Positions 521 to 21,900 of a stretch of DNA of 64,000 bases are shown piece after piece. Origin of the DNA: an uncultured Acidobacteriota bacterium. Lineage in GTDB: Bacteria; Acidobacteriota; Terriglobia; Terriglobales; Acidobacteriaceae. The stretch is from assembly GCA_903851035.1 (NCBI GenBank), contig CAINND010000060.1, forward strand, positions 1 to 64,000, read 5' to 3'. Both the position numbers and the translations under genes were made by a program. Positions within the stretch are counted from its first letter, which is position 1; the number at the start of each line of letters is the position of its first letter. Under the pieces are notes generated by a model. It was given only the letters and a program-made list of their open reading frames with translations, made no database searches and was not told the origin of the DNA.

Positions 521-703
521 GCGGATAAGATCATTGTGATGCACAAGGGCCAGGTGCGCGAGATGGGAACACACCAGCAGTTGCTGGCCATGAAGGGCGT
601 TTACTACAAGCTCTACCAGTTGCAGTACAAGGATCAGGAGATGGCGGGGGCAGCGCAGTCCGCGCTTGTAAACGGCCTGCCGCAAGCTGCTCCAGCAGAC
701 TGA
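521..703 (+). pseudogene. 3' remnant of an ABC exporter (MsbA-like) ATPase domain
   Basis: Read from 521 to the TGA at 701-703, the frame encodes [18 protein letters not shown] followed by [17 protein letters not shown]. This matches the region after the H-loop at the C-terminal end of ABC exporter ATPase domains, where the family reads roughly ADRIIVLDKGxIxExGTHxELL. An in-frame TAA at 518-520 stands immediately upstream, and no Walker A, Walker B, signature motif or membrane domain precedes it. Only about 60 codons remain. The first ATG (539) would give a 54-residue peptide with no function I can suggest. MsbA-type exporters belong to the lipid A pathway, so a remnant next to lpxB may mark a former msbA-lpxB arrangement. 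Confidence 0.72.
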
Positions 704-745
704 GCGCCGCACCAGCCATGCTGACCTGATATCCTGACGGCGCAG

Positions 746-2125: not shown

Positions 2126-2235
2126 TGCCGCGCACGAAACCACATCGTGGCGGCTTAGGTAGGATCACGGTATAGGCTTTCTTTTGTTGGCTTCCGGTAG
2201 GAGCAACGCACGGCCTCCAGCAGGAGTATTGATTT

Positions 2236-4239: not shown

Positions 4240-4276
4240 CTCCGCCTAGATTTGCGCAAATTACAACGCGTATAAG

Positions 4277-4308
4277 AAAAGCCGCGCTCCAGGGCGCGGC
4301 TTCGTTTG
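4277..4308. terminator. Bidirectional intrinsic terminator
   Basis: Stem GCCGCGC (4281-4287) pairs with GCGCGGC (4294-4300). It is flanked by AAAA on the left and a T-rich stretch on the right, so it can serve both the peptidase-like gene and the convergent toxin gene. Confidence 0.75.
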
Positions 4309-4331
4309 TAGCAAATATCATCAGCAGAAAT

Positions 4332-4679
4332 TCACAAATCCAAGGCTATCTTCAATGCAACGTCTATTCGAGTCATTACATCTTTCTCGAATTTTCCCTT
4401 TTGTTCACGGAGTCGGCTTTTGTTGATAGTCCGCACTTGCTCACAAAGAACTATTCCATCAATCGTCTGTCCGCCTACACCAGCAGGAATCTGAACGTGA
4501 CTTGGGTATATCCGCTTCTTGTTGTTTGCATCGGTTATAGGGCAAATGCAAACTACAGGGCTGTACTTATTAAGAGAGTCCCTGCTTACAATTACGACTC
4601 TCCGAGTCCCGCCCTGCTCAGATCCCTCTACAGGATCAAGTGCTGCAATGAAAACATCACCTCGAAAGACTGGTGGCAT
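4332..4679 (-). CDS. MazF/PemK-type toxin (endoribonuclease)
   Basis: The 115-aa product has the compact PemK/MazF barrel signature: the start PPVFRGDVFIAALDPVEGSEQGG, then RRVVIVSRDSLN and the core VVCICPIT. Toxins of this family cleave mRNA and are held inactive by the partner antitoxin. The start codon lies 23 bp inside the end of the antitoxin gene, the usual translational coupling of such pairs. The module is visibly more AT-rich than the genes around it, which fits acquisition. Family assignment is firm, but the RNA specificity cannot be told. Confidence 0.88.
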   Translation of the reverse strand: MPPVFRGDVFIAALDPVEGSEQGGTRRVVIVSRDSLNKYSPVVCICPITDANNKKRIYPSHVQIPAGVGGQTIDGIVLCEQVRTINKSRLREQKGKFEKDVMTRIDVALKIALDL

Positions 4680-4995
4680 AGCTTATTTCGGCCTCCAAGG
4701 ATTCTTCTCCTGTTCGAAGTGCTTCCCAGTCTGAATCAGCAAACTCCTCCGAGAGCAAACTCGCTTCCTTTTGGTATTCAACATCTTCAGCCATCCCCGA
4801 AAAAGCCTGATCAATCTGGCGCCGCCTATATAGTTTCAAATACGCCTGAAGGGCATAAACCACCAGATCATTCATACTAACAACTGGCCCAGAACCATCC
4901 TTTTCATTTTCAACCACGCACTTGGCCTGATCGTAGATGAGACGAGGAATGCGCACAGTTGTCGTGCGAGTTTCCTTCATCTGCGCCAATGCCAT
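4657..4995 (-). CDS. Antitoxin, ribbon-helix-helix-like N-terminus
   Basis: This 112-aa protein precedes the MazF-like toxin on the same strand and overlaps it by 23 bp. The N-terminus (KETRTTTVRIPRLIYDQAK) has the strand-helix pattern of ribbon-helix-helix DNA-binding antitoxins. The acidic second half (residues about 70-112) suits a toxin-wrapping segment. An ideal ribosome site (AAGGAGG, complement of 5001-5007) fixes the start. As is usual for the class it should repress its own promoter, and two palindromes just upstream are candidate operators. Confidence 0.8.
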   Translation of the reverse strand: MALAQMKETRTTTVRIPRLIYDQAKCVVENEKDGSGPVVSMNDLVVYALQAYLKLYRRRQIDQAFSGMAEDVEYQKEASLLSEEFADSDWEALRTGEESLEAEISYATSLSR

Positions 4996-5041
4996 AACTG
5001 CCTCCTTAACCGTTATTCTGGTTCTTCCGTTAACTCAATTC

Positions 5042-5078
5042 CGTCTATTAGAATTAGACGCAACTCCCGATATATCGG
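5042..5078. promoter_or_regulatory. Candidate operator palindromes of the toxin-antitoxin module
   Basis: Two inverted repeats lie 45-85 bp upstream of the antitoxin start. One is cgtcta (5042-5047) with tagacg (5055-5060), separated by 7 bp. The other is the perfect 12-mer ccgatatatcgg (5067-5078). Paired short palindromes are typical antitoxin binding sites. No binding was tested. Confidence 0.45.
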
Positions 5079-5133
5079 TTGCCTCTAACAAACAATATCG
5101 TCATGTATTCAAGAAAAGATTACAAGAAAGAAA

Positions 5134-5191
5134 TGCGAATGGAATATATAAGTGATGTCATGACTGACATCACTTATATATTCCATTCGCA
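5134..5191. repeat. Perfect 27-bp inverted repeat with a 4-nt spacer
   Basis: Bases 5134-5160 are the exact reverse complement of 5165-5191, with the spacer tgac at 5161-5164. The arms are AT-rich and contain gtgatgtca. The structure stands about 140 bp upstream of the antitoxin gene and 87 bp beyond the end of the next minus-strand gene. It could be a very strong RNA hairpin, a dimeric-protein site, or the trace of a small inverted-repeat element. Confidence 0.9.
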
Positions 5192-5277
5192 CATCAATTG
5201 TCAAGTGAAATATTTATTTCGCTTTGTAATCAGGTAGATATGGGCCCCGAATCAAGGCTTCATATAGATAAATCAAA

Positions 5278-5871
5278 TCAATAATCGCCGGCGCCGTCGC
5301 TGGTCACAACGTAGCTCTTGGCCATGCGTGAAGCCAGTTGCTTGGCCACCTCCAGCGCGGCGGGGCTGGTGTAGGCCGAGCAGTGTACCTCGGCGCGGTC
5401 GCCATCAAAGTACAGGCCCACGATGGCCTCGGCCTTGGCCGCCGTGTCAGAGAGATCCAGCGTATGGCAGTTGCTGATGATCACCGTGCCGGGCAGGCAG
5501 ATGCGGTCGAGCAGGCAGAACATCTCCAACTTGCTTTCGAACTCGTCCGGGCCGGTCTCCATCACAATGCGGGCGCGGCGGGCAGCGCCTTCGATGCTGG
5601 TGACGCACTCGATGCGGCTGATGGCCTCATCGGCCTCCGGCTGGCTCAGGCCTCCGGCGGCAACGGCGTCATCCAGATAGCGGCGAATATCGGCCGTCGC
5701 GTGCTCCAGCGAGGTTGGGATCAGGTCTTCCAGCACGACGCGGTAACCGGCCATGGCTGCCCGGCGGGCCAGTTCGCGGCCCACGCGCCCGGCGCCGATG
5801 ACGGCCACCGTGTCTTCGATGCGAGCCGCGTCCTTACCTTCTGCAACTTTATGCGCATCAACGGCAGACAT
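5278..5871 (-). CDS. 3-hydroxyacyl-CoA dehydrogenase-like NAD-binding protein
   Basis: The 197-aa product matches the N-terminal Rossmann domain of 3-hydroxyacyl-CoA dehydrogenases. It has VAVIGAGRVGRELARRAAMAGYRVVLED with the GxGxxG nucleotide loop (about residues 23-28), then a RIVMETGPDEFESK segment and ISNCHTLDLSD, where the enzymes have ASNTSSL. The C-terminal dimerisation/catalytic domain of the roughly 280-aa enzymes is missing, so this is either a stand-alone NAD-binding protein or a partner of another polypeptide. The ATG lies two bases after the stop of the 59-codon gene upstream, so the two are co-transcribed. Confidence 0.75.
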   Translation of the reverse strand: MSAVDAHKVAEGKDAARIEDTVAVIGAGRVGRELARRAAMAGYRVVLEDLIPTSLEHATADIRRYLDDAVAAGGLSQPEADEAISRIECVTSIEGAARRARIVMETGPDEFESKLEMFCLLDRICLPGTVIISNCHTLDLSDTAAKAEAIVGLYFDGDRAEVHCSAYTSPAALEVAKQLASRMAKSYVVTSDGAGDY

Positions 5872-5873
5872 GG

Positions 5874-6053
5874 CTACTTTTCCAGGTTCTCAACCAGCTT
5901 GATAAAGTTCGGATCGGAGTTGCGCATGTACTCGGCCAGCTTGTGGCGCTCCTCCGGGGTGATGAACGTGCTGCTGGAAACGATGCGGCGCAGGGTGGCC
6001 GCGATGTCGTCCACGTAATTCATCAGCCGGATCAATTCTCCACTCGATGCCAT
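5874..6053 (-). CDS. Small protein of 59 residues, function unknown
   Basis: The frame starts at the ATG complementary to 6051-6053, behind a strong ribosome site (GAGGAGG, 4-nt spacing), and ends two bases before the dehydrogenase-like gene. The product is hydrophilic and mostly helical (MASSGELIRLMNYVDDIAA, then TPEERHKLAEYMRNSDPNF). It has no cysteines, signal peptide or membrane segment. I do not recognise the family. Tight spacing with the following gene suggests a joint role. Confidence 0.7.
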   Translation of the reverse strand: MASSGELIRLMNYVDDIAATLRRIVSSSTFITPEERHKLAEYMRNSDPNFIKLVENLEK

Positions 6054-6163
6054 GATGCCTCCTCAATGGTCCGAAAATAATGCTGCCGTGCGCCATCCAA
6101 CTGCGCCGGGCTGGAGTTCATTGTCAGGGCCAGCAGGGTGGAGTGTCAAAAGCCCGCGCTGCG

Positions 6164-7699
6164 TCAGGCGGCAAAGTCCTCGCCGCCGGAGTTCCACCCG
6201 GGATGCGAAGTGCGGTCGGTGACCTCGGCCAATGCGGCCAGCTTCTGTGCCAACTCCGTGCGCAGCGCCCCGGGAGCGTATCGCCACGCCCAGTTGCCAT
6301 CGCTGACGCTGGGAATGTTCATGCGCGCCTCCTGCCCCAGCCCCAGTACGTCCTGCAAGGGCACCACGCACAGGTTCGCCGTGGAACCCTCGGCAAGGCG
6401 AATCATCGCCCAGTTGGCGCCGTCCGCGGCTTCGCCCAGCAGGGCACCGGCCGAGCGGCGCTCGTAGTCCGTGCAGTGCTGCCACCAGCCCAGCGTGGTG
6501 TCGTTATCATGCGTGCCGGTGTACACCACGGTGTTGCGGTCGTAGCAGTGCGGCAGATAAACGTGCGCGCCGGGATCGCCAAAGGCGAATTGCAGAATGC
6601 GCATGCCGGGCATTCGCCAGCGCTCGCGCAGGGCGTTCACATCGGCGGTAATCACGCCCAGGTCTTCGGCGATAAAAGGCAACTCGCCCAGCCGCTCATG
6701 CAGCACGCGGAAGAGGTCTTCGCCCGGACCATCCTCCCAGCGTCCGTTTACCGCCGTGGGCTCATGGTTGGGAATGGCCCAGTACTGCTGAAAGCCGCGG
6801 AAGTGATCGAGGCGGATGATGTCGCAGTGCGCCAGCGCCCAGCTCATGCGGCGCACCCACCACTCATAGCCGCGCTCGCGCAGCACGTCCCAGCGGTAAA
6901 GCGGATTGCCCCAGCGCTGCCCGGTGTTGCTGAAGGCATCCGGAGGCACGCCGGCCACGGCCTCCGGCTGTAAGCTCCGCATATCAATGCGGAATTGTCC
7001 GGGATCAGTCCACACGTCGGCCGAGTCAAAGCTGACGAAGATGGCCACGTCGCCGACGACACGCACGCCACGCTGCCCGCAATAGGTGTGCAAGGCGCGC
7101 CACTGCTCGAAGAAGGCAAATTGCAGAAAGCGCGCGCGATCGAGCTGATCCGCCAGTTCCGTGCGCAGCGCGGCCAGCGTGGCCGCATCACGGCGGGCTT
7201 CGCCCTCCGGCCAGCGGTTCCAGCTTTGCAGGCCGTGACGCTCGCGCAACGCCTCAAACAGGACGTAATCTTCCAGCCACCAACTGTTCTCGGCCACAAA
7301 GTGGTCAAAGCGCGCGCGCTGCTCGCCCGTGGCGTTCGCCAAAAACCACGCGGCGGCTTCATCCAGCAGCGGAAGCTTTTCACGCGCCACGCGCAGGTAG
7401 TCCACCGGGCCTTCAGGACGATTGAGTGTGGCTACTTTTTCATGGGAGATCATGCCGCGCTCGGCCAACCGCTGCAGGCTGATGAGCAGCGGGTTGCCGG
7501 CAAAAGCCGAGGTCGAGGAGTAGGGAGAATTCCCGATGGCCGCCGGATTCAGCGGCAGAATCTGCCACAAGCCCTGGCGCGCCTCGGCCAGGAAGTTGAC
7601 GAACTCATAGGCGGCGGGGCCCAGGTCGCCAATGCCGGAGTGGCCCGGCAGCGAGGTGGGATGCAGAAGAATGCCACTGCTGCGTTGCTCAAGGTTCAA
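6164..7699 (-). CDS. malQ: 4-alpha-glucanotransferase (amylomaltase), GH77
   Basis: This cytoplasmic enzyme transfers alpha-1,4-glucan segments between maltodextrins or glycogen fragments. The 511-aa sequence is full length for the bacterial short form and shows the GH77 hallmarks: GILLHPTSLPG at the N-terminus, GNSPYSSTSAFAGNPLLI, IIRLDHFRGFQQYW (nucleophile Asp), FIAEDLGVIT (acid/base Glu) and VYTGTHDNDTT (third carboxylate). It is separated by about 130 bp from ppiD upstream, with ppiD's terminator between, so it probably has its own promoter. The small-gene operon follows in the same direction about 110 bp downstream. Confidence 0.95.
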   Translation of the reverse strand: MNLEQRSSGILLHPTSLPGHSGIGDLGPAAYEFVNFLAEARQGLWQILPLNPAAIGNSPYSSTSAFAGNPLLISLQRLAERGMISHEKVATLNRPEGPVDYLRVAREKLPLLDEAAAWFLANATGEQRARFDHFVAENSWWLEDYVLFEALRERHGLQSWNRWPEGEARRDAATLAALRTELADQLDRARFLQFAFFEQWRALHTYCGQRGVRVVGDVAIFVSFDSADVWTDPGQFRIDMRSLQPEAVAGVPPDAFSNTGQRWGNPLYRWDVLRERGYEWWVRRMSWALAHCDIIRLDHFRGFQQYWAIPNHEPTAVNGRWEDGPGEDLFRVLHERLGELPFIAEDLGVITADVNALRERWRMPGMRILQFAFGDPGAHVYLPHCYDRNTVVYTGTHDNDTTLGWWQHCTDYERRSAGALLGEAADGANWAMIRLAEGSTANLCVVPLQDVLGLGQEARMNIPSVSDGNWAWRYAPGALRTELAQKLAALAEVTDRTSHPGWNSGGEDFAA

Positions 7700-7776
7700 T
7701 GCTCTGGCGCCTTCCCTTCCGGACGGAACGACGGCCTATCAACTCCAGAATGCACCGCCGTCATGGCTTTGGCGAA

Positions 7777-7809
7777 CAAAAAAATGCGGGGAGGTGTTGA
7801 CCTCCCCGC
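7777..7809 (-). terminator. Intrinsic terminator after ppiD
   Basis: A 10-bp perfect stem (7786-7795 with 7800-7809) with loop GTTG is followed on the minus strand by a run of seven T's. It lies 19 bases after the ppiD stop. Confidence 0.9.
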
Positions 7810-7827
7810 CATGGATTCCGCGATTGA

Positions 7828-9822
7828 CTACTCGCCGCTGTTGGCGGAGCCGGCCATCGCCTCAACCTTCTTGCGGTCGATTACGATGCGGCCTTCCTTT
7901 TCCAGCTTCTGCCGTAGCGAGGCCACAAACACCTCTTCGGCTTCGCCGCGCTTGCGATCCAGCAGGCTGGCCTTGATCTGATCCTTCATTCCGGCAAACT
8001 CGGCATCTGTCGGCACGGTCTTTTCCAGCATCAGCACGACCGCGCCCTTCTGCCCCAGGTTAATCGCCTGGCTGAATTCGCCGGGCTTCAGGTCAAACAC
8101 CTGCGGAGCCACCGAAGCCACCTGCCCAAGATCGGGCACCTGGCCATCCGGCGTGATCGCGTCGCTGGTCTTCACCGTGGCGCCCACGGCCTTGGCCGCC
8201 TCGCGCAGATTGTGCGTGGTGCGGGCTTTTTGCGCCAGCTCCTGCATCTTCTGCGCCAGCATGGCACCGGCCTTCTGCGATTTCAGATCTTCGCTCAGCC
8301 GATCCTTTACCTGCTCAAAGCTCGGCGTTGCCGGAGGCTTAACCTCTGTTACCTGGAAGACCGCGACACCGCGCGTCAGCGGCACACTGGCCGCAGCGGC
8401 TCCGGGCTTGGCGGCAAACACCGCATCCATCAACTGTGCCGACTGGCCAACGCCGGGCAACGCGTCACGGTTGCTGACAAAGCCACTCTCTTCCACCTTT
8501 AGTCCGTTGGACGCCGCGGCCTTTTCGAGCCCTGCCGTCTTGGCCTGGCCTTCCACGCTGCGCGCCAGTTGACCGGCCACGGACTGGTTTTTCTGCGCCG
8601 CCACCATGGCCTCAATCATCGGCTTCAGCTCGTCCAGGCTGCGGGCATGCGCCGCCACCTTGTCGTCCACGCGGATGATCTCAAAGCCATAGCTGGTGCT
8701 GATGAGTTCGCTGACCTGGCCCTTGTTCAGGGCAAAGGCGGCCTTTTCAATGTCCGGCGCCGAGCCCGAGCCCAGCACCAGTTGATCGCCTACCACGCCG
8801 CCGTTTGGGGCCGTGGCGGTGTCATCGGAATACTTTTTTGCCAGCGCGGCAAAGTCGCCGCCCTTTTTCAGCTGCGCCAGCACGTCCTGCGCCTTGGCCC
8901 TGGCCACGTCGCTCTGCTTGGCGTCCACCTTGCCGTCGGGGCCGGGCAGCGGCAGCTTGACCAGGATGTGCCGCACCTTTACCGACTCCGGCACGCGGAA
9001 CTCCGCGGAGTGCTGGCGATAGTAGCCCTGCACCTCGTCACTGGTGGCCTTTGCCGGGTTCGGCAGATGCGCCGGATCCACCACCACGAACTTCACCTTG
9101 CGCTGCTCGGGGATGGTGTTGGCGAACATCTTCTGGTTCTTTTCGTAATAGGCCTTCAGCTCGGCCTCGTCCACCTTGACCGACTTCTTCAGATCGTCGC
9201 TGCCAAGCACGGCATAGTCGAACTTGTACTTGGTCTTAGCCCGGACAAATGCGTCATGCACATCAGAGTCGCTTACCGTCACGCCGGCGCCGATGATGGC
9301 GCGCAGCTTGCGCATGGTCAGGTCGTCGCGAATCTCCTGCTCGAACTGGGGGATGCTGACGTTGAACTGGTTTGCGATCTGATCGCGATACTGGTCGGCG
9401 CCAATGAAGGTTCCATTGGGATACAGCAACTGCGCAAAGTTGCCATGCTGCAACTCGTAGCGCACGTCGTCAGTAGTGGCTTCCAGGCCAAGACGCTTGG
9501 CCTCGCGCAAATAAACCTTGCGCATCACCACCATCTCCACGGCGCGCGGCAGCAACTGGGGCATCAGCACGGCGCGCAAGCGCTCCGGGTAGCCCTGCTG
9601 CTGCATGATGTTGCGCGCCGTCTGATCCACTTCCAGGCGCGAGATTTCCTGGCCATCCACCTTGGCCACTGCGTTGGCGCTCACGCCGGTACTCAAGTCG
9701 CTAAAGAGTCCGCTGCCGCCGGTGGGTATCAGGGTTACGACCATCATGATGCAGACGATGGAGAGGAAGCCGATCAGAAGTGCTTTCTGTATTCGGCCAG
9801 GGGTTTGCAGAAATCGAATCAT
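7828..9822 (-). CDS. ppiD: Periplasmic folding chaperone / peptidyl-prolyl isomerase PpiD
   Basis: The 664-aa protein has one N-terminal membrane anchor (about residues 13-33, KALLIGFLSIVCIMMVVTLI), a SurA-like N-terminal chaperone region (about 50-280) and a parvulin domain (about 280-390, with VRHILVKLPLP, GGDFAALAKKYSDDT and GGVVGDQLVLGSG). A second, degenerate parvulin-like region (about 480-590) precedes the C-terminal helices. This is the PpiD layout: an inner-membrane-tethered foldase acting on newly exported proteins. The start is placed just before the anchor. The gene is divergent from a radical SAM gene across 216 bp. Confidence 0.9.
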   Translation of the reverse strand: MIRFLQTPGRIQKALLIGFLSIVCIMMVVTLIPTGGSGLFSDLSTGVSANAVAKVDGQEISRLEVDQTARNIMQQQGYPERLRAVLMPQLLPRAVEMVVMRKVYLREAKRLGLEATTDDVRYELQHGNFAQLLYPNGTFIGADQYRDQIANQFNVSIPQFEQEIRDDLTMRKLRAIIGAGVTVSDSDVHDAFVRAKTKYKFDYAVLGSDDLKKSVKVDEAELKAYYEKNQKMFANTIPEQRKVKFVVVDPAHLPNPAKATSDEVQGYYRQHSAEFRVPESVKVRHILVKLPLPGPDGKVDAKQSDVARAKAQDVLAQLKKGGDFAALAKKYSDDTATAPNGGVVGDQLVLGSGSAPDIEKAAFALNKGQVSELISTSYGFEIIRVDDKVAAHARSLDELKPMIEAMVAAQKNQSVAGQLARSVEGQAKTAGLEKAAASNGLKVEESGFVSNRDALPGVGQSAQLMDAVFAAKPGAAAASVPLTRGVAVFQVTEVKPPATPSFEQVKDRLSEDLKSQKAGAMLAQKMQELAQKARTTHNLREAAKAVGATVKTSDAITPDGQVPDLGQVASVAPQVFDLKPGEFSQAINLGQKGAVVLMLEKTVPTDAEFAGMKDQIKASLLDRKRGEAEEVFVASLRQKLEKEGRIVIDRKKVEAMAGSANSGE

Positions 9823-10038
9823 CTTCCGGTTAGCTCCAAAGGTAGAGAAGGGCGAAGCTCAAATTATAAACCAGCCGGGCGCTTTGCCCGAATCCGTACC
9901 CGGCCCACGGTGGAATTCCCGCTTCGTCCATCCCCGCCCAATGGAGAACTTCGCCCTTCGGCCATGGAATTGCCCCTTTGGGCCCGCCGTCCTTCCCTTC
10001 CCTCGCCGGGCGCGTGATGTAATGGAGATTCGATTCCT

Positions 10039-11070
10039 ATGTCGCAGAGAAAACAGGGCTTTCGGATGAAATGGGTCGCCGCCAACCGCCGCCTGCGGGA
10101 GCTGCGCATGATTGCCCATGGCCTGGTGGATACCAACCACATCGTCATGGCCCACATCATCCCCATGCGCCGCTGCAACCTGGCCTGCGCCTACTGCAAC
10201 GAATACGACTCGACCAGCAAGCCCGTGCCCCTCAGCACCATGATTGAGCGCATTGATCACCTGGCGCGCCTCGGCACCGCCATCGTCACCATCAGCGGCG
10301 GCGAGCCAATCCTGCACCCGGAGCTCGACGACATCATCCGCCGCATCCGCCACCACGGCATGATCGCCGGCATGATCACCAACGGCTATCTGCTGACGGC
10401 CGACCGCATTGAGAAGCTCAACCGCGCCGGCCTGGACCACATGCAGATATCGATCGATAACGTCATGCCGGACGACGTCAGCAAGAAGAGCCTGAAGGTT
10501 TTAGACAAGAAGCTGCAACTGCTCAGCGAGCACGCCGAATTCCACGTCAACATCAACAGCGTCGTCGGCGGAGGCATCCACACGCCACACGATGCGCTGG
10601 TGGTGGGCCGCCGCGCCCGCCAACTGGGCTTCACCTCCACCGTGGGAATCATCCACGACGGCGACGGCCAGTTGCGCCCGCTGAATGGCGAAGAGCGCAC
10701 AGTCTTTTTCAAGATGCACAACATGGAGCGCAAAAACTATTCGCGCTTCAACTGGTTCCAGACCAACATTGCCAACGGCAAGCCCAACGACTGGCGCTGC
10801 CGGGCCGGCGCGCGTTACGTTTACATCTGCGAAGACGGCCTGGTGCACTACTGCTCGCAGCAGCGCGGCTACCCAGGCACGGCGCTGGCGGAATACGGCA
10901 AGGCCGACGTGAAGCGCGAGTTCCTGACCACCAAGGGCTGCGCCCCCAACTGCACCGTGAGCTGCGTCCACCAGGTCAGCTACATCGACTTCTGGCGCGC
11001 GCCGCAGACCCTGCAGCCGCAGCCGCGCGAGGCCAACCTCGGCGACCTCATCCAGATTCAGAGTGATTAG
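10039..11070 (+). CDS. Radical SAM protein with SPASM-like cysteine tail
   Basis: The 343-aa product has the radical SAM cluster motif CNLACAYC (Cys46, Cys50, Cys53), the SAM-binding segments [14 protein letters not shown] and ITNGYLL, and MQISID. The C-terminal part holds further cysteines ([32 protein letters not shown]) as in SPASM-type auxiliary-cluster domains. Substrate is not identifiable. No precursor peptide or partner enzyme is adjacent. The start at 10039 gives a basic N-terminus before the core. Later in-frame ATGs (10066, 10108) are possible alternatives. Confidence 0.85.
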
Positions 11071-11231
11071 CCGAAATTGGCAAGCGGGTTTCCACCGCGA
11101 TGGTGGCGAAAAGTTTGCGCGATGGACGTGCGTTTGTTACACTCGAAGAGGTCCTGAGCCAAATGCAGGACGCCTGTAGGACACGGCCCTCGCGACACTT
11201 CCACCAGGCCCTCCGGCAGCAACCTCAAGAT

Positions 11232-11307
<76 letters not shown>

Positions 11308-11499
11308 TCTTGTCAACAAGATACAACCCTTCATCTGCTGTCAAACCTGCCGTTTAGAGCTAACCATGTGACTTTGCCGCTAACTAGCCAAGTTCACATA
11401 TTTGGCGTTGATTGGAATGGCAAGGGGAGTCAAAACGATGGCAGGCACTGGAATGTTCTTTAGTCGATCAGCAGGGCATTCGATGCAGTGGATGGACGA

Positions 11500-14481
11500 T
11501 TATTGCTTGAATATGTCGCGCAGCTTATTGGCCAGGACTGTCAGCGAGAACGGCTTTTGAAGAAAGACAACCTTGGCAGCCTGAAACTCATTCCTCAGTA
11601 CCGAATCGTCTGTGTGCCCGGACATGTATAGTGTTTTGATGTCCGGCCTTAGCGATAAGAGTTTCTGGTGCAGTTCTCTTCCACCCATCTTTGGCATTAC
11701 GATATCGGTAATCAGTAAGTCGATGTGCTGTGTGTAAGCGTCGGCCAGTTTGACTGCCTCGATGCCATTTTCTGCCTGCAATACAATGTATCCACAATCA
11801 ACTAGAAATTCACTTACGATCTCCCGCAGTTGCGGTTCGTCTTCAACCAGGAGGATGGTTTCTCCGCCACAACCAATCCCGGTGGCAGGTTTGGCCAACT
11901 CGCTGACTTCCGGCTGGTTCACTCTCGGCAAGTAGCACTGAAAGCATGTCCCGTGCCCACTCTCACTAGTCACCAGAATATGCCCGGAACTCTGCTTGAT
12001 GATGCCGTAAACCGTTGCCAGTCCTAACCCCGTACCTCTGCCAAGTCCTTTCGTTGAGAAGAACGGTTCAAAGATCCGATCCACCACTTCCCTGGTCATT
12101 CCGCAGCCAGTGTCTGACACAGACAACATTACATATTGGCCACGGGTAAATCCGGGATGAGAATAAATAAAATCATCATCCACATTTACTGTTGCCGTCT
12201 CAATGCTCAGGAGCCCGCCCTGGGGCATCGCATCCCTGGCATTGACGCATAGGTTCATCAATACCTGCACAATCTGTCCTGGGTCTGCAACCACCATTCC
12301 AGGATCCCCGATAGGCCGGAATGAGATATCAATGTTCTCGCCGATGAGCCGTCGCAGCATCTGCATCGTCTCATCAACCAGTGCATTCAAACTGATCACC
12401 TGGTTGGTGACAATCTGCTTTCTGCTGAATGCCAGCAGCTGTCGCGTAAGGTCCGCGGCGCGTTTCGAGACAGTCAGTATCTGTTCCGCATGGCGTTTTC
12501 TGCTGCTCTCCGTTTCTGTGGACAACTGCAACATCTCGGCACAACTGGTGATCACCATCAAAATGTTATTAAAATCGTGCGCAATTCCCCCAGCAAGTTG
12601 TCCGATTGCCTCCATCTTCTGGGCCTGGTTCAACTGCTCCTGCATCTGAACATCGCGCGTGACATCGCGTTTGACTGCGACGTAGTTGATTACCTCGCCG
12701 GTCTTGTCACGAATCGGCGATATCGTGGCCTCTTCATGGTAGAGCGTTCCATCTTTGCGTCGGTTGATAAACTTCCCGACCCATGTTTCACCGCGCAACA
12801 ACCGTGCCCACATCTGTTCGTAAAATTCTTTCGTTTGCTGACCGCTGTTCAGAACTCGCGGATTATTCCCGAGAGCCTCCGCCTGGCTATAGCCGGAGAT
12901 CCTGACAAATGCAGGGTTGACGTACACGATCCGGGCTTCCCGGTCGGTGATCACAACCGACTCACCAACTTGTTCCACGCTTTCAATCAGCCGGGCGTGA
13001 TCAGCTTCTGCCTTCTTGCGCTGAGTAATGTCCCGCAACACTGCCTGTACGATTGCTGCGCCACCCTCGCGGAAGGAAGCAGCGGCGATGTCCACGTCAA
13101 TTACGGAACCGTCGCGGCGATGAACTCGCACCTCTTGCAAAGGAAGCTGCGTTTCATGCTCGTACATATATTCCGTGAGCTGCTCCGCTCTGTCACGATC
13201 TTCCGCGTGAATCAGTTCCAAGAGGCTGCGGCCCACCAGTTCATCCGCGGAGGCCACGCCAAACAGTTCCACCGCGGCCTTGTTGGCTATCGATATGGCA
13301 TGTTGTCTTCCTATGAGGACGGCATCGGGGAAGAGATCTAATAACTTCTTATAACGCTCTTCGCTGTCCTGTAGTGCCTGGTTCGCGGATGCCAGCTCTT
13401 CCATTGCCGTTTTCAGCTCCCGGGTGCGTTCGGCAACTGTCTGTGCAATGACGGACTGACGCTGGATACTAGACTGCACATAGGCAGCCCACAGCCCAGT
13501 CAGCAGGATTCCAAGAATCAGCGAACCCCAACTTCTGTAATGCGTAATCTCAAATGCTCCCGGTAGCGAATAAACTGTGATTTGCCAGCGACGGCCGGCC
13601 ACAGAAACTATCTGGACGCTTTGAAAGGCAATCGCGCGGTCAGTCGGCGATTTCGATTCCGCGCCCTTTGGATAGAGCAACTGTGAACCCGTCGAGGCTT
13701 CAAGATCGTTGATCGTAAGACCAAGACTGGTTGGAATATTGCTTGTCTGGCCGGCTCTATCCACCACATCGTTGAGCCGCAGAACACCTAGTGCCATTCC
13801 AAGCAGTGCCTTGCGCCTCTCCTCCACGGTTGGTGGCAAGGTTGCAGTGCTATAGATGGGATGGAAGATGAGTACACCGTATTGATTGGCGTTTTCCTGC
13901 ACCAGGATCACGCGGTTTGTGGAAACCGATTCTCCTGAGTCTGTAGCCCGTTGGATCGCTTCGCGTCGGGATGGGTCCGACAACAGATCGAAGCCGAGTG
14001 CACGTTCGTTTCCACTGAGTGGTTCCACAAAGTATACCGGAGCATACTCGTCACGCTCACCAGCGCGAACCATGGTTCCCTGTGAAATACGCTCCGTAAA
14101 TTGAAAGGAGGTCAGGCCATCGCGGCGGGCGTCAGTCTCAAATTGCCCTCGGCGACTCCTGGGCACTCGCGGAATCCACTCCAACGCTTGTATGGCTTTA
14201 TTGGATTCCAAAAGCGGGGCAGTGAAACGTTTGAAAGCCATGCGATCCAAATGTTGGGAGATGCTGAGATATGCACCGAGTGATGTGATGTCATTCAAGT
14301 TCAGTGCAATGTTTGATTCCAAACTCGCAATGCGATGCTGTGCCAGACGTTCAAAGTCCGCCTGAGCACTATTCTGCTCGAGATTTCTAAATTCGAAGAA
14401 GAAGCCAAACGTGAGCAGCAAGCCGAGGGGGATAGCCCGGGTCAGTGGCAGAGCACGGCGAATGGTGGAAAAACCCAACAT
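11500..14481 (-). CDS. Hybrid sensor histidine kinase (CHASE-PAS-PAS-HisKA-HATPase-REC)
   Basis: The 993-aa protein has a membrane segment near residues 17-33 and another near 318-336, enclosing a CHASE-type periplasmic sensor (YAPVYFVEPLSGNERALGFD). Two PAS domains follow (about 375-490 and 500-615), then a HisKA domain with phospho-acceptor His635 in GGIAHDFNN. The ATPase domain has N and G boxes (NLCVNARDAMPQGG, VSDTGCGM, GLGRGTGLGLATVYGI). The C-terminal receiver carries phosphorylatable Asp926 in LLITDIVMPKMGG. It should signal an extracytoplasmic ligand through phosphorelay. The partner is not in the window, because no response regulator with an output domain adjoins it. It is the sole cargo between the tRNA-Lys repeats. 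Confidence 0.92.
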   Translation of the reverse strand: MLGFSTIRRALPLTRAIPLGLLLTFGFFFEFRNLEQNSAQADFERLAQHRIASLESNIALNLNDITSLGAYLSISQHLDRMAFKRFTAPLLESNKAIQALEWIPRVPRSRRGQFETDARRDGLTSFQFTERISQGTMVRAGERDEYAPVYFVEPLSGNERALGFDLLSDPSRREAIQRATDSGESVSTNRVILVQENANQYGVLIFHPIYSTATLPPTVEERRKALLGMALGVLRLNDVVDRAGQTSNIPTSLGLTINDLEASTGSQLLYPKGAESKSPTDRAIAFQSVQIVSVAGRRWQITVYSLPGAFEITHYRSWGSLILGILLTGLWAAYVQSSIQRQSVIAQTVAERTRELKTAMEELASANQALQDSEERYKKLLDLFPDAVLIGRQHAISIANKAAVELFGVASADELVGRSLLELIHAEDRDRAEQLTEYMYEHETQLPLQEVRVHRRDGSVIDVDIAAASFREGGAAIVQAVLRDITQRKKAEADHARLIESVEQVGESVVITDREARIVYVNPAFVRISGYSQAEALGNNPRVLNSGQQTKEFYEQMWARLLRGETWVGKFINRRKDGTLYHEEATISPIRDKTGEVINYVAVKRDVTRDVQMQEQLNQAQKMEAIGQLAGGIAHDFNNILMVITSCAEMLQLSTETESSRKRHAEQILTVSKRAADLTRQLLAFSRKQIVTNQVISLNALVDETMQMLRRLIGENIDISFRPIGDPGMVVADPGQIVQVLMNLCVNARDAMPQGGLLSIETATVNVDDDFIYSHPGFTRGQYVMLSVSDTGCGMTREVVDRIFEPFFSTKGLGRGTGLGLATVYGIIKQSSGHILVTSESGHGTCFQCYLPRVNQPEVSELAKPATGIGCGGETILLVEDEPQLREIVSEFLVDCGYIVLQAENGIEAVKLADAYTQHIDLLITDIVMPKMGGRELHQKLLSLRPDIKTLYMSGHTDDSVLRNEFQAAKVVFLQKPFSLTVLANKLRDIFKQ

Positions 14482-14735
14482 ATGCTACCCATACCGTAAC
14501 TAAATTGCCATAAACGTACTATATGAATATTGAATGTACTACTAATTGCACGCATATCCATTCCTGTTTGCAATGACCGGATAAGCCTTTTTCGTCCTCT
14601 GAATGCAATAGTTCAGCTCCGCTATTCAGTTTCGTGCAATCCACCGGCAATCCGCTAAACTCGACTTCCTCGAAACTTCACTTACCTTGGCAACGTCCAC
14701 GCTCTGTAAGTACTTGAAAATATGCGTCATCGCGA
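14482..14735. other. Gap between the kinase start and the right tRNA repeat
   Basis: AT-rich, with no credible gene. It should contain the kinase promoter, but I see no clear -35/-10 pair. Confidence 0.5.
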
Positions 14736-14763
14736 GTTCGACTCCTACCGCGCTCACCATCTT
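14736..14763 (+). repeat. attR-like repeat of the tRNA-Lys 3' end
   Basis: This is the right copy of the 28-bp direct repeat, identical to 11284-11311 except for one T to C change in the T-loop region. The rest of a tRNA is absent here. Confidence 0.78.
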
Positions 14764-14786
14764 AAGTCCTAGCCAGAAACAAAGAT

Positions 14787-14815
14787 GCGGCCATCTGGCC
14801 GCTTTTCCTTTTTGA
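14787..14815 (+). terminator. Terminator, probably the original tRNA-Lys terminator
   Basis: Stem GCGGCC with GGCCGC and loop ATCT (within 14787-14802) is followed by TTTTCCTTTTT. It lies 24 bp after the right tRNA repeat, with no other plus-strand gene upstream to terminate. Confidence 0.75.
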
Positions 14816-14927
14816 GGCAACTAGATTAGTTGTACCCAATTTTGTGCCACCGCAAACGGCACTCACACACAAAGACATGATGTTGGTTGAACATGCCTTT
14901 CACAGAAAGCTATTTGCAGGCAGAAGG

Positions 14928-16352
14928 TCATTGGCTTGTATCCATTGGGGCGAAAGTCATCCTAATTCTGTCGATTCTGGCTTCGATCTCGGGCAAGGGA
15001 TGGATTTTTTCGGCCACCGTAAGGCAATAAAGAGCCTGCTCCTGTTGGTTCGTTTGCTCATAGGCATAGGCCAGGGTCAGTAAAATTTGTTGTTGGCTAT
15101 AAGCTGACTCCTGTGGCTCGTTCAGCAGCGGCACCAGCAGGTTGATGACATCCTGCATGCGCCCTAGCTGGGCATATTCGCGGGCAAGATTCGCGCGAAC
15201 CAACTGGCTCTTTGGTGCAGTCTCCCTTGCTCGCTCATATAGGTGCAGATTATTCCGCCATGGCTGCTCCTCTCGAATGCAACCACACGACATTAGAGTT
15301 AGCAGCGCCAAGATCGCCGGGCCTGGAACTTTTTCCAGCAGAAGGCCAAGCAGCATCGCGGCGCCAATCGAAGGCAGATACAGATAGCGATCCTGCACCA
15401 GCATGTCCGCTTTAAACATACCCACCCTGAGCAGCGGGAGTAGAGGAACCATCAGCAGGGTAACGGCCAATGCCAGGTAGCGTCCCCTGGTGGCGAGATA
15501 CGTTAGCGCCACCAGCAGGATCAACAGGCACGCTGCTGCCAGTTTGCTCGGCTCTATGTCGTAAAAAGGGCTTAAATGCACCGGCCAGACAAGATGGCGG
15601 AAGTACGTGGCCATGACGGTTGGCAAAAGCCATCCCGAAGTTGCCCGCGGTTGCGTGACCGATATGTGTCCGAGTACTGCAATACGAATGAGCAAATATG
15701 CTCCCGCTGTCGCCACAAAGGGCAGCACCTTCTTAAGCGTCGGCACAAACTCCGTGTACATGGCAGCGAACAGTATGATTGGCCCGACGATCGCAGTTTC
15801 TTTGCATAACAGCGAGCAGAAATAGAGAATGACCGCATAGGGCCATTGCTTAGCATGTCGAGCCAGGATCGCTGCGCCCAGCAAAAACGCTGTCATCATC
15901 AATTCTTCAATGGCTGATATCCAAGAGACCGCTTCTGCGTGCACCGGGTGAAGAGCAAAAATAGCCGTTACGATCAGTGCTGCCTTGGCACCGCGTAACT
16001 CTCGAATAAATCGATAGACCAGGGTACAGGTCAAAAGGTGCGTCAATACCAGCACCACGTGCCAACCCATGGCGGAGTTGCCAAAGAGAGAATCACAGCA
16101 TCGCATTGCCAGCAGAAAGAGCGGACGGTAATACTGGCTGGGCACGAACGGGTTGTGTGCCCAAAGATGCTGCGTGAAATACGAAGGAACAAAAGCCCAC
16201 GCGTGTATCCGTGGATTATCCATGATTTGCAGGGTATCGTCCCAGACAAAATCGAATTGGAACGTTGGCAGATACGTCAGCAAAGTGGCGGCAAGCAGGG
16301 CCATGAGAGTGGCCACATCTTGCCGTTTACGGACAGAATCAAAGAGAGACAT
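14928..16352 (-). CDS. TMTC/GT39-like polytopic membrane protein with C-terminal TPRs
   Basis: The 474-aa product begins with a helix, then the motif FDFVWDDTLQIMDN in the first extracytoplasmic loop. An acidic pair in that loop is typical of GT-C, dolichol/undecaprenyl-phosphate-sugar-dependent glycosyltransferases of the TMTC type. About nine to ten membrane helices follow (to about residue 350), with FALHPVHAEAVSWISAIEELM, a strong TMTC-like signature, near residues 135-155. TPR-like helices occupy about 370-460 (LVRANLAREYAQLGRMQDV). Transfer of a sugar to exported proteins is inferred from the family. The GC content is lower than that of neighbouring core genes. Confidence 0.75.
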   Translation of the reverse strand: MSLFDSVRKRQDVATLMALLAATLLTYLPTFQFDFVWDDTLQIMDNPRIHAWAFVPSYFTQHLWAHNPFVPSQYYRPLFLLAMRCCDSLFGNSAMGWHVVLVLTHLLTCTLVYRFIRELRGAKAALIVTAIFALHPVHAEAVSWISAIEELMMTAFLLGAAILARHAKQWPYAVILYFCSLLCKETAIVGPIILFAAMYTEFVPTLKKVLPFVATAGAYLLIRIAVLGHISVTQPRATSGWLLPTVMATYFRHLVWPVHLSPFYDIEPSKLAAACLLILLVALTYLATRGRYLALAVTLLMVPLLPLLRVGMFKADMLVQDRYLYLPSIGAAMLLGLLLEKVPGPAILALLTLMSCGCIREEQPWRNNLHLYERARETAPKSQLVRANLAREYAQLGRMQDVINLLVPLLNEPQESAYSQQQILLTLAYAYEQTNQQEQALYCLTVAEKIHPLPEIEARIDRIRMTFAPMDTSQ

Positions 16353-16888
16353 ACGAATCGTTCATTTCTGCCACTTTAGAGGAGATATCCCAGCTGCAAT
16401 ATCCCTTCAATACTCCAAGTCGCTGGCATTTATCTGCCGAATAGTTTTCATCACGTAAAACCATTTTATTGCAATGGATAAGCTCATCGCCCAGTGTTTG
16501 TCTTTTCTTCCATCGGCTGCATCGTCCACAGAAATTTCTGACACTGCTTCCGAGCCGGGATTCTCGGCAATTCGTTACATCCTATGATGGCAACCATTAG
16601 ATGGGCGGATAGATGGGCTGAAGCGTCATAATAAAATGCGGCTTTGGGGCAAATCGTGAATATTATACTCGAGCATTACAACGCTTGGATTTTGCCCCTG
16701 TAAATGCGCGCCATTGCCGCAAGCCTGGAGACAAGGCCTGTCAGGACATTTCGTTTCTTGGCACTTCCAGCATCAAAAAACAGTCCGCAGCAACCCCGGT
16801 CACAGAGAGTCCACAGGGTGTTCCCCGGGGACTGCGTGACTGGCCATTGACCCAAGTTTTTCTAGCGCCATGATGGTAAAACCGCCCC
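16353..16888. other. 536-bp gap without a recognisable gene
   Basis: AT-richer than its surroundings. The promoter of the TMTC-like gene must be at its left end. No RNA gene, repeat or convincing open frame is visible. Confidence 0.6.
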
Positions 16889-18916
16889 TCAGGGCTTCGT
16901 TACCAGGGGAACCTCCTTTGAGGCGGGGCCACGGGAGCCATCGGCGGCCTGGTAAAGAATGCGGTAACTGGCCCGAGTATCCGTGGGAGGATCGAGGTCA
17001 ACAAATTTACTGCTGGCGTCACTCACTCCGGCACTCTGGCTCTCCACCTCTGCTGTCTCAATGGGGCCGCCGAGCGTGGTCCAGGCAGTGGCGCCTTCCG
17101 CCTTTACCTGAATCAAAATTGCCAGCCCGGCCGGTGCTGGAGCAAAACTGATCTCCGCGCGAGTGGGATGGAGGGCAAAGGCAACTCTCGGGTCGGAGGG
17201 AACGGGGATATCGCCGGCGCCGATGCGTATGGTGACCATGGCTGTGGGTTCACTGCGGATGCCGCCAGCGTCGAGTGTATAGAGGCGGTAATAGTAGTGG
17301 CGGCCCACGCTGACAAAATTGTCCTCATAGTGACGTGCCGAACCTGGCAGCGGATCGCCGATCACCAGACCCGGATCGTCCGGCCGGTCGCTGCGAACAA
17401 CCAGAAACTGGGCGGACTTTCCAGGATTGCCACTCGGCATAAAGTCAATTGCTGCCTTGCCGCCTGCGCCCGAGGTCTGCATGATGATGGGCGGCAGCGG
17501 CACCGTGGTATCCGGCACCGTGACAGTGACCTCGGCGGAAGGCGTAGATTCCTGATTGTCATAGGCGATAGCGACGATACGGTAGTTGAGTCCGCCGTAG
17601 CCGCCACGCTGATGGTCTTCGTACTGCGGTTCGGGCCACGGGCGCTCGTTCAACCGATGCCACAAGTGATCGGCGCCGCTGGCGTTGCGCTCAATCCAGT
17701 AGCCGGCCACACGGAAAGGCACCGCCGACCATCTGACCAGGACGCGATCGGCGCCAAGTTCGGCATGAACATCGGCGGGCGGCGGAGGCGGTGTGCTGTT
17801 GCGCGCCTGCGCAAAGACTGTGATCGAAGGTGGGCCGGGATTGCCGGCCGCCGAGATCGAGCGCACACGGTAATAGTAGGTTGTGCCGCCATCCACGTTG
17901 GAATCCTCATAGCGCAGCACCGTTCCGGGCAGTGAGCGATCCATCAGCGCTTCGAATGGGCCGTTGTTGCTCATCCCGCGCTCCACCAGGTAACCAACGA
18001 CGGCAACCGATTCGGCCGCGCTCCAGATGATCTGGTTCATCCCGGGCACCACCGTCGCTTTCACTTCCAGCGGTGGAACCAGAGAGGGCGGCAGCGTGGC
18101 CTTGATGGTGGCTGGCGGGCTGAAGCGACCGAAGATGTCCATGCTGCTGACGCGATAGACCAGTTCCAACTCCTCGGGTGCATGCACATCAACAAACTGC
18201 GCCGCCTTCTCGTTCCAGCGTGAGCCCAGAAGGAGTGGCGGCTCGGTCAGTGTGCCGGCACCATCGCGCTCCACCCGGTAGGCAATCACCGGGAACTTTG
18301 CATCAAAGGGCGCTGGCGACCAAAGCAGTGCCACGCCGCGAGGCTGGGCAACCTGCGCGCGCAGGTTGTTGGCAGGCGGCGGCAGCGGAGATGCAGTGGC
18401 CGAATCCACCGCCATAGTTGTCAGCACAGCGCCAATAGGCTGCCCTCCGGCATTGAGCGCACGCACGCTGTAGCTATGCGCGCCGGCCGGAACTTGCGTG
18501 AGGATTCTGGCAAGCCCTGCGGCCTGGGCGAAGGCAAAGTCAGAGAAAACACGGGAGCCGAGGATGCCCAGCGCGTTGGCCTGAGAGTTCGCATCACTCG
18601 CCTGCTGTAGTTGTTGCTGCATGGTCTTGAGCCGGTTGACATCGTCGGCTGAGAGATTAGCGAGATAGGCTGGGTCATTTGGCGCGACGTTGGCCAGCCA
18701 CACATGCCCGGTATCATCCTGAATAGACCACGCGGCAGTGGTTGAGCCTATCGGCGGAATCCACAGGATGGCGACCGAGCCGGAGCCCAGCGAGGCGGCA
18801 AAGGCGCCTCCGTTGCCCTTCTGCGTATCGGCGGCCATAGCAGGCAGCGCCAGTGCCAGCAGGGCCGCAAGGAGGAGTGCACAACACAGTACGCGAGTCA
18901 GATAGGTTCGAGTCAT
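16889..18916 (-). CDS. Exported fibronectin type III protein
   Basis: The 675-aa product has a classical signal peptide (about 1-28, ending ALPAMAA) and a series of FN3-like domains. Typical strand pairs include VALLWSPAPFDAKFPVIAYRVE, YYYRVRSISAAGNPGPPS, VLVRWSAVPFRVAGYWIER and YYYRLYTLDAGGIRSEPT. No catalytic domain is visible. It is the third gene of a minus-strand run and starts 12 bp after the 2158-residue protein gene, so they are surely co-transcribed. An extracellular or periplasmic binding or structural role beside its two large partners is the best inference. Confidence 0.8.
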   Translation of the reverse strand: MTRTYLTRVLCCALLLAALLALALPAMAADTQKGNGGAFAASLGSGSVAILWIPPIGSTTAAWSIQDDTGHVWLANVAPNDPAYLANLSADDVNRLKTMQQQLQQASDANSQANALGILGSRVFSDFAFAQAAGLARILTQVPAGAHSYSVRALNAGGQPIGAVLTTMAVDSATASPLPPPANNLRAQVAQPRGVALLWSPAPFDAKFPVIAYRVERDGAGTLTEPPLLLGSRWNEKAAQFVDVHAPEELELVYRVSSMDIFGRFSPPATIKATLPPSLVPPLEVKATVVPGMNQIIWSAAESVAVVGYLVERGMSNNGPFEALMDRSLPGTVLRYEDSNVDGGTTYYYRVRSISAAGNPGPPSITVFAQARNSTPPPPPADVHAELGADRVLVRWSAVPFRVAGYWIERNASGADHLWHRLNERPWPEPQYEDHQRGGYGGLNYRIVAIAYDNQESTPSAEVTVTVPDTTVPLPPIIMQTSGAGGKAAIDFMPSGNPGKSAQFLVVRSDRPDDPGLVIGDPLPGSARHYEDNFVSVGRHYYYRLYTLDAGGIRSEPTAMVTIRIGAGDIPVPSDPRVAFALHPTRAEISFAPAPAGLAILIQVKAEGATAWTTLGGPIETAEVESQSAGVSDASSKFVDLDPPTDTRASYRILYQAADGSRGPASKEVPLVTKP

Positions 18917-18928
18917 TGCAATCTCTCC

Positions 18929-21900
18929 TTACAGGTGCACCTTGACGTGGACGTCGGGCAGTGGGAAGGGCAAGTCCATGGTGAAAGTGGCATTGATGTC
19001 GATGGGCAATGCCTCGGCGTGGATGGCGGCCGTGACGGAACCATCAACGCAGGCGCCCATGGCGCAGACGCCGGCAGAGATGCTCTCCGAGAAATCACCA
19101 ATGAGGTGCGGTTGCGGCGTTACCTGCAACCCGAGGTCAACGTTGCCGCTGACATAGGCTGAGGCCACGCTGCTGTCCCCCACTCCCAGGTAGATGCCCT
19201 CCGAGCCACCGATGGCCAGGCCGCAATCATTGCCGAGCATTACATAGGCGTCGGCATCGGAGGTCATCACGCGGCCATGGATGCGTGGCCCCTCCTTTTT
19301 GCCGGCGTAGACGTGCCAGGTGCCGTGGCCGAAGTGCAAACTGGCAGCGCCTGGTGGAACGACGATGTTCACCGTGTTATCAAGGAAACTAAGCTGCCCG
19401 GAGAGGTTGCCGTCAATGTCTCCGTTGGCGTATTGCAAGGAGCCCTGGAAATCACCGTTGCCGCTGTGATTTGCGCTCAGCAGCCAGGCCTTGAAGTCCA
19501 TGCGGGCGCCGGGGTTGCTGCCGCCCACCGAGACCGTGAAATCGCCGTCAAATGCATAGGCGAAGCCGTCGCTGGAGCCGACCAGCATCCCGGCATTGAA
19601 TTGATAGGAGTTGTCTATCGTCGGCTGAATGGTCTTGATATCCGCCGTGCCGATGAAGTCGTTGATCCCGAAGTTGTGCCCCAGACCGCCGTTGATTCTA
19701 AACAGCGTGAGGAAGGGCGGGAAGATATTGACTGGTGTGCCTTCCAGTGAAAGCGTCGCCTTAGTCATCCAGTAGTCATGGCCATTCTGGCGGCCAAGGA
19801 TAAACGATGCGCTAACCGCGTTACCGCCAAACATGGCAAGGTCAACATCGCCATCGTAGCGGTCGTTGTCATCGGGATGATACTGCGGGCGGATAGCCGC
19901 GGTGACCGTCGGATTGGTCGCCGGCAACGCGGCGTTGATGGTGAACTTCTCTATCGAGGCCTTGCTGGCCGAGTACACTGTGCCATCACGGAAGAGGGAG
20001 TAATCCACTTTTACATCGGTCGACGGCATGACCTCGGAGAGATGCAGCTTCGTAGAGAAGATGAAATCCATGATGTCGCGGCTGTTTTGCGGCGTCGTCA
20101 TGTGCACGTTGGCCAGGTCCACGGGTGTGCTGCCGAGCGATGACTGGCCGCTGAGAGCAACATCGTGACTGGGCGCGGCCTTGTCAAAGTGCGGCAGGCC
20201 GTCGAAGCCGTAGATGAGTGGCGTGGTAAAGCTGGCAAGGGTCTTGCCCGCCGCCTTCATGGTGAAGCTGGTATTGGAGTCCATGGCCCAGTCAAGGTTC
20301 TCCACATGGCGGAAGACAAAATCCTTGGCCGTGAAGGAGACATCGCCGTAGGTCAGGTTGACGGCAGGTGCCGAGGGGAAGGTGAAGGTGATGGATGTGT
20401 CCTTGCCGTTGCCCGCCACCAGCCTGCCGTTGCCCGTGATGTGCGTGTTGAGCCAGGGCATGAGGATGTCCACGTTCGCAAGCGAGCCACTGTAGTTGCC
20501 GCCCTGCGCATCAAAGTTGTAGTCGAACTTGATGTGCCCTCCTCCCTTGTCGCTGTCAAAGTGCACCGGTCCCATATGTCCGCAAATACCGCTGTCGGTG
20601 ATGCCCCAATCCTTTACCGAAGACGAGATTTGCACCATGCCCATGGTGTAGGGATAGATGGTCGCGTTGCCCAGGTGCACGCCGACAAAGTTTTCCGGCT
20701 TGCCATAGCTGCCGCACTTCGGTCCCGGGGCCTTGCCATCCTTCAGGCTCAGGTCAATTGCGAGGCTGCTGGACTCGATCAGGAAGGCGGTGGCGCCGAT
20801 TATCGTCTTCGGCATCGTTAACCCGTCCTTGTACCAGGAACCGTCAGCACCAAGTGGCGCCTCCACGCTGCTCCACGAAGGTGGAACCTCGGTCTGGCCC
20901 GGGATGCGCAGCGTCTTATCCTTCAGTTGCAGTGTCATCTCTGCCAGTAGTGGCTGGTTGGCGCTGCCGTGAATTCGATTCAGCGTCCCCTGTACGGCAG
21001 GCGTGGCCGAGAGCTGTATCTTAGGCTGCACGTCGAGTGACCCCGAACTGACATGGATCGCATCCGGCACCTGCCAACCCTGGAACTGCACCCGCACCGG
21101 CGGATACTGACGCACCGAGCCGGCGCCATCCACGAGTGAAACAACCAGGTTGCCGCCACCGGAGAAGGTGCCGTCCGCGTTCCGCTTGGTCTTGCCTTCA
21201 AGCGCGGTGATTGCAAAGTTGCCAGACGGTGTAGGCAGGTAGAAGGTACAGGGAGCCCCGGGCGTGCTTTCCATTACGGCATAAATACGCCGCTCGGAGC
21301 CGATCGGTGTGCCAAACTGCGCTGCAAGGGCCGCTTCCGCCGCTGCCTGCGCCGCGGCCAGCATCGCAGAGTTGGTGCCCGCCTGTGTCTTCACTGTCGC
21401 TTGCGCACTGCCACCGCTCTGCAGGTAAATGACCGAGGGCTGCCCCGCAATCGGAATGCTGTTAGGCGAGAGAATGCCCAGCTTGGGTGGAGCTTTGGCC
21501 GAGCGCACTGTCATGTCTCCCACTGCGCCCTGCTGTATTGTCAGTGACATTGCCATCGCCTTGCCGCTGCTACCCAGCGGTGTGGCAACCTGCGTAAACT
21601 TCCCGGCGCTGACGGCTGTCTGTAGCGCTCCCTGCACTGTTCTGGTCAGGTTGTCGCTGGCGTCGTACTTCGCCTTGGCGATCTCTACATACACCCCATG
21701 CTCGCCCAGGTCGCGGTGCGGCAACGCCGGCGAGTAGTATCCGGCGCGCTCGTCCACGATAATCGCAGGCCATTTTGATTTGTCGCGCGGCAGGTTCGTA
21801 CGCTGCGTCGAGGACGGCAGGTCTATCACCTCTTGCCCTACCGTAAAGTTGTCCACCTTCCAGGTCAGCAGTGCCCGGCCATGCCCGTAGTAGTCGATTG

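Follow-up and report, generated by a model that had tools for sequence, protein, structure and literature searches.

A probable integrase-deleted integrative element with a lone hybrid histidine kinase gene at tRNA-Lys(CTT) of an Acidobacteriota bacterium

Within the window, the stretch of 64,000 nucleotides analysed here, positions 11284-14763 are best explained as a decayed integrative element at the tRNA-Lys(CTT) gene, which has lost its integrase by deletion and retains a hybrid histidine kinase as its sole remaining gene; we put the probability of this reading at about 0.87. Both att copies are present, the right end is conserved and integrase-bearing relatives have the same ends (Table 1). 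We propose that a tyrosine integrase recombining in the tRNA T loop would have inserted the element into tRNA-Lys(CTT). On the left (attL) the gene would have regained its 3' end from the att sequence that the element carried, its original 3' end being displaced to the right (attR). A later deletion would then have taken nearly the whole integrase gene, the 3' end of which adjoins attL in relatives, and spared a trace of its last codons, the kinase gene and an intact right end with its arm repeats. It is likely that two relics now stand in tandem, the older one having been separated from the tRNA gene when the kinase element was inserted; such an insertion would give the order of kinase unit followed by older unit.

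Table 1. Coordinates of features at the tRNA-Lys locus of the window and, in the last row, of proteins in stretches from related units
Feature	Position	Strand	Basis
tRNA-Lys(CTT), intact target gene	11232..11307	+	ARAGORN
attL core, T loop to tRNA-Lys 3' end plus TCTT	11284..11311	+	direct repeat
Left-end motif TCTTGTCAACAAGATACAA, resembling TTTCAACAACTTACA that adjoins the core in several integrase-bearing relatives	11308..11326	+	by-eye comparison, weak alone
Probable integrase C-terminus trace SGKVTWLALNGRFDSR (stop), like SKVAGLALNGSRTDRTAS (stop) of a relative	11331..11381	-	in frame, expected place
Hybrid histidine kinase, 993 aa, sole remaining long gene	11500..14481	-	ORF list, Pfam
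Conserved right end: arms and CGTCC..GCTCTGTAAGTACTTGAAA block	14632..14734	+	nhmmer, E 3.9e-10
Right arm-type direct repeat GCAATCC-N4-GCAATCC	14636..14653	+	repeat search
attR core, displaced copy of the tRNA-Lys 3' end	14736..14763	+	direct repeat
Probable left end of a second, older element of another integrase class	14764..14850		left-end alignment, moderate
Terminator-like hairpin behind the distal copy	14787..14802		hairpin search
Arm-like pair GTACCCAATTTTGTGCC	14832..14848		alignment with relatives' left ends
PMT_2-like protein gene, same AT-rich stretch	14928..16352	-	Pfam, GC
Second recombinase-like proteins of related units	L049 11358..13139; L041 12650..14554; L184 10404..12161; L159 6683..8422		

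A preliminary description of this DNA had reported a 28-bp duplication of the tRNA-Lys 3' end with one mismatch, and direct-repeat comparison confirmed it. The two copies are 96% identical, the single T/C difference lying in the T loop, and consist of the final 24 nt of the gene followed by TCTT. Two matches to the core pattern are present in the window, against 0.00 expected from shuffles. The search for further copies that had been proposed was run on the bacterium's own assembly (3.26 Mb, 121 contigs, 98.9% complete), where a tRNA-Lys query gave four matches, namely the gene, the distal copy and two tRNA-like places at 78-80%, and no third copy of the repeat. We also observed that the distal core, mismatch included, agrees at all of 24 nt with the tRNA-Lys allele carried by a genome from another genus (G025; L010, L042), which is perhaps a hint of the donor.

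The duplication had been taken as a mark of site-specific integration into tRNA-Lys, and this now has strong support, as a conserved element end abuts the distal copy and integrase-bearing relatives share the ends. The roughly 100 bp just inside the distal copy can be aligned with sequence on the left side of short copies of the tRNA-Lys 3' end in two genomes of other genera, G033 and G018. At the other end of the unit in these genomes, 7353 and 6841 bp away, a tyrosine integrase adjoins tRNA-Lys or its 3' half, and the two integrases are 87% identical to each other. The columns that are invariant across the three right ends include the GCAATCC..GCAATC pair and the block CGTCC..GCTCTG.AAGTACTT.AAA. 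The GCAATCC pair is the sole one of its kind in the window, allowing at most one mismatch, against 0.07 expected, and similar repeats are found at both ends of relatives. A first model of the right end, made from three sequences including the window's own, matched 75 of 398 family genomes at E <= 1e-4, the bacterium's own genome counted. The model was then rebuilt with the window excluded: each of 56 other right ends supplied the roughly 112 nt that precede its core, and two of the 56 contained part of a tRNA core. Against the 64-kb window it gave one significant match, at the end directly before the distal copy (E 3.9e-10; the next, E 3.3), a test that is not wholly independent, the training ends having been found with the first model. 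The window thus has the family's conserved right end, with an arm pair, abutting a tRNA 3' fragment. Strict exact patterns of this right end gave no match in either a genome-contig or a viral-contig collection.

At the left end, the family has an integrase next to attL; the window has only the probable C-terminal trace, and the element is therefore a derivative and not a complete member of the family. A nine-residue motif drawn from 15 integrases or fragments ranks the trace site third of 103370 nine-mers in the window, two unrelated sites outranking it, and the site lies on the right strand at the position where the end of the integrase gene should fall. The same motif found no such site in the other integrase-less units. 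A DNA model of left ends gave E 0.36 against the window, which is not significant, and left arm repeats are not recognisable there. From frame, strand, place and motif rank taken together, we read the trace as probably what is left of an integrase gene deleted down to its last codons.

Two origins had been suggested for the element, a relic of a genomic island or mobilisation in trans. The first is supported, with a short integrase C-terminal trace and left arms that are not recognisable. Mobilisation in trans did not find support in the bacterium's own genome, which has nine PF00589 matches, two of them within one frame. When these loci were compared by tblastn with the G018 and G033 integrases none was closely similar to the cognate integrase. 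The best match, beside tRNA-Ala (L058), was 24-27% identical, so no likely helper was found in the assembly.

The interval had further been described as holding an AT-richer hybrid kinase and no integrase. The kinase is indeed the only long ORF and no integrase gene is present between 11284 and 14763 (ORFs, Pfam), but the short integrase-like trace remains and the AT-richness is not confined to the element. The GC content is 0.518 in the element and 0.512 in 14764-16700, compared with 0.615 in 1-11231, the AT-richer stretch continuing beyond the distal repeat to about 16700. Transfer genes are likewise absent from the interval by ORFs and Pfam. The kinase has the domain order CHASE-PAS-PAS-HisKA-HATPase-REC. 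At E <= 1e-200 it has, besides itself, one match among the 398 family genomes, in G002 at 42% identity, together with many weaker matches, and PADLOC gave no match to it at E <= 0.001. The kinase is probably passenger cargo. That the only gene left is one for a hybrid kinase suggests that such elements can carry signalling genes as well.

The terminator of the tRNA gene had been placed behind the distal copy. A terminator-like hairpin does lie there, but it is probably not the tRNA's own. Because 14764-14850 looks like a left end as found in elements from another integrase class, we would assign the hairpin to the left end of a second element. This flank was aligned with left ends in G001, G013, G054, G031 and G029; the first four, which have the different integrase class, show a TCTTAA-like start, a hairpin in some, and then the GTACCCAATTTTGTGCC pair. 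The region has 7 terminator-like sites compared with 5.2 expected, which is no enrichment. The PMT_2-like gene is a possible candidate for cargo of the second element. Neither a right end of this element nor a further att copy was found downstream by the tRNA search of the own assembly and the flank comparison.

Just upstream of the tRNA gene, a radical SAM gene is present in all four genomes of the genus, own included, with 84-92% identity in the three relatives. Downstream, a 2158-aa ORF occurs in just one of the four, the own genome, and a search with the DNA from 14500 to 20500 hit two relatives, in each case at the tRNA-end repeat alone. Parts of 28000-47000 match all three relatives, on other contigs, so not all of the downstream DNA is foreign. 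An empty tRNA-Lys site was not seen among the three: two (G002, G003) have tyrosine integrases of other elements directly after tRNA-Lys, and the contig of the third (G001) ends 95 bp after the gene. More widely, 10 of 30 tRNA-Lys loci, the own genome included, match an integrase panel within 1.6 kb downstream; the panel includes integrases of some of the loci tested, and some locus contigs end early. From these matches tRNA-Lys would appear to be an integration hot spot. In one further genome (L039, G030:C11) the 3' part of a tRNA-Lys gene is repeated over 41 bp at a distance of about 2.1 kb, and the sequence after this tRNA resembles, by eye, an integrase C-terminal remnant. A product in G024 that is 65% identical to window positions 36173-39337 and lies 3.2 kb after tRNA-Lys was set aside, as it may be a paralogue. 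An IMG/VR contig (L304) carries a 58% identical integrase beside tRNA-SeC, and no conserved right end was found on it. Integrase relatives in phages (508 records) and plasmids (at least 5000 matches) were all below 60% identity, at about 24-27% among the matches listed. We found no intact form from which the kinase element could have been derived.

To describe the family more fully we used 80 stretches, taken by hand from among the places matched by the first right-end model, together with L041, L049 and the first 26 kb of the window. Scanning these 83 stretches gave 92 matches, of which 7 were core-only and were dropped, leaving 85 right ends. A right end was counted as paired where an upstream copy had at most three mismatches in 22 nt. 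This was the case for 26, and one of them, L119, was rejected (3 mismatches, unit of 246 bp), leaving 25 paired units; the remaining 59 right ends are unpaired within the stretch analysed. Among the 25, and with shares that lean towards small units since both ends are likelier to fall within 15 kb in short ones, 13 have a full integrase of 366-470 aa beside the left att copy, two have a fragment (L134, L188), and in 10, the window included, none was found. The tRNA genes called at the units are Lys, Ser, SeC, Asn, His and Val. No tRNA was called at L131 or at L174, an integrase-less unit of 11994 bp that was excluded from the comparisons of arm repeats and att cores, and the units of L150 and L184 begin at a second att copy instead of a tRNA gene. 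By eye, each of the 13 complete units has an arm repeat at the integrase end that is similar to the one at its right end, even where the repeats differ between units (GCAATCC, GCAATCA, AAATCA, GCGCTC, GCGTTC); L192 has a single clear right arm, also by eye. We infer that such matching within each unit is what an integrase with arm sites of its own would be expected to produce.

The cargo of the related units was assigned from family matches of predicted proteins (Pfam, PADLOC), few proteins being scanned. Four of the 13 integrase-bearing units have defence-like families, namely TIR/Thoeris ThsB, AIPR, a Cas9-like HNH/RuvC protein and a SMODS nucleotidyltransferase, and matches to NERD and RHS families also occur in integrase-bearing units. 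The Cas9-like protein has 1254 aa (L159, 12059-15823; HNH_4, RuvC_III, Cas9_a) and lies in a unit with an integrase. Integrase-less units gave matches to a type ISP restriction protein and Abi_alpha. Several of the proteins scanned have no family match, and no relaxase or conjugation protein was found among the 29 related-unit proteins, a subset of the ORFs, that were scanned with Pfam. We also noted a larger second tyrosine-recombinase-like protein of 579-634 aa behind the integrase in four units (Table 1, last row). These proteins are homologous to each other, and in three of the four units a small ORF lies between the integrase and the second protein.

Are the integrase-less units still mobile? 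The kinase unit could be a non-autonomous cassette if the integrases of incoming T-loop elements move att-bounded units without an integrase in trans, a dependence that may be likened to that of CALIN arrays on integron integrases. Within this Acidobacteriota family, units of this kind, with one or few genes and the right end of about 130 bp, would then amount to tRNA-gene cassettes of a functional class that includes the kinase unit. In favour of such cassettes, 10 of the 25 paired units have no integrase, nine of them being 0.7-3.8 kb long, and the att cores are identical in 6 of 11 integrase-less or truncated units (nine without integrase plus L134 and L188). The cores differ, however, in the other five, compared with none of the 13 integrase-bearing units, as would be expected for decay. 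A tandem pair of integrase-less units behind tRNA-Ser(GCT) (L156, G103:C294; 1684 and 3567 bp) is also suggestive, as the two share both ends (left, 168 bp at 97.6%; right, 134 bp at 94%) and differ in cargo, one carrying Abi_alpha. We rejected this pair as proof of mobility in trans, because the left end as query, with two candidates scored per genome, returned mostly a dispersed repeat (bases 52-91) in 92 of 398 genomes, which makes local duplication equally likely. Some of the matches extend to base 144 at 75-81%, and only the first 25 or so bases have no match outside G103 among the matches listed. The window itself has no recognisable left arms and a probable integrase trace, and no cognate integrase was found in its genome. 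Each observation that supports cassettes moved in trans also fits decay; we consider it very unlikely that the kinase unit is still mobile, and see little prospect that the integrase-less units make up a functional class.

A different possibility is that the AT-rich DNA from 11.3 to 16.7 kb, with both the kinase and the PMT_2 gene, is one island in which 14736-14763 is an internal att copy. The similar GC on either side of the distal copy and the lack of matches to 14500-20500 in the genus, except for the repeat, would be consistent with this. Against a single island, the right end of one element stands directly before the distal copy and sequence like the left end of another directly after it, an arrangement that two stacked elements fit better, and no further att copy was found downstream, making it very unlikely that the whole stretch is one island. 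A decayed duplicate tRNA gene or a chance repeat, without integration, might be considered from the shared length of just 28 bp, but the similarity ends within the T arm, at no gene boundary, and gives way there to the different, conserved sequence of an element end, and 0.00 chance matches are expected. We rejected a decayed second tRNA gene, and there is next to no chance that the repeat arose without integration. A decayed, integrase-deleted element next to an older one remains the reading that we prefer.

In the literature searched, covered in part as titles and openings of abstracts and so weak evidence, no description of elements that share this right end came up. Small tRNA-integrated cargo elements with tyrosine recombinases are also known from another phylum than the window's, as tycheposons and other 'hitchers'; both names occur in PMC11389934. 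In the Islander collection, as set out in PMC4383910, the ends of islands are marked by an intact tRNA gene and a displaced 3' fragment, just as in the window, attP sites in the T-stem region are common (1836 of 3919 islands), and an integrase gene is required. The window has no integrase gene, and on that description its element would therefore be filtered out. The right end of about 130 bp may serve as a marker for close mapping of T-loop tRNA islands even after the integrase is lost, and might aid in finding mobile defence cargo missed by integrase-based island finders.

The ssrA islands of Dehalococcoides, as described in PMC3146451, resemble the present family in T-loop insertion, in tandem islands behind a direct repeat and in members without an integration module (15 there), but they use a serine recombinase and the tmRNA gene in place of a tyrosine integrase and tRNA genes. 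The closest description is that of a cis-mobilizable element (CIME), which, as defined in PMC5704250, has lost integration and transfer genes and kept attL and attR, with accretion as the tandem stacking of elements at a tRNA gene. At the sequence level the window element retains attL and attR, has at most a C-terminal trace of an integrase, has no transfer genes and stands in tandem. It differs in that a single gene is left and in that its relatives, known from integrases and ends, are only possible ICEs or IMEs. Its mobility in cis is doubtful because left arm sites are not recognisable. The locus is an ordinary relic that fits the published descriptions of CIMEs and accretion, and its value lies in the right-end marker, which matched 75 of the 398 genomes searched in one Acidobacteriota family.
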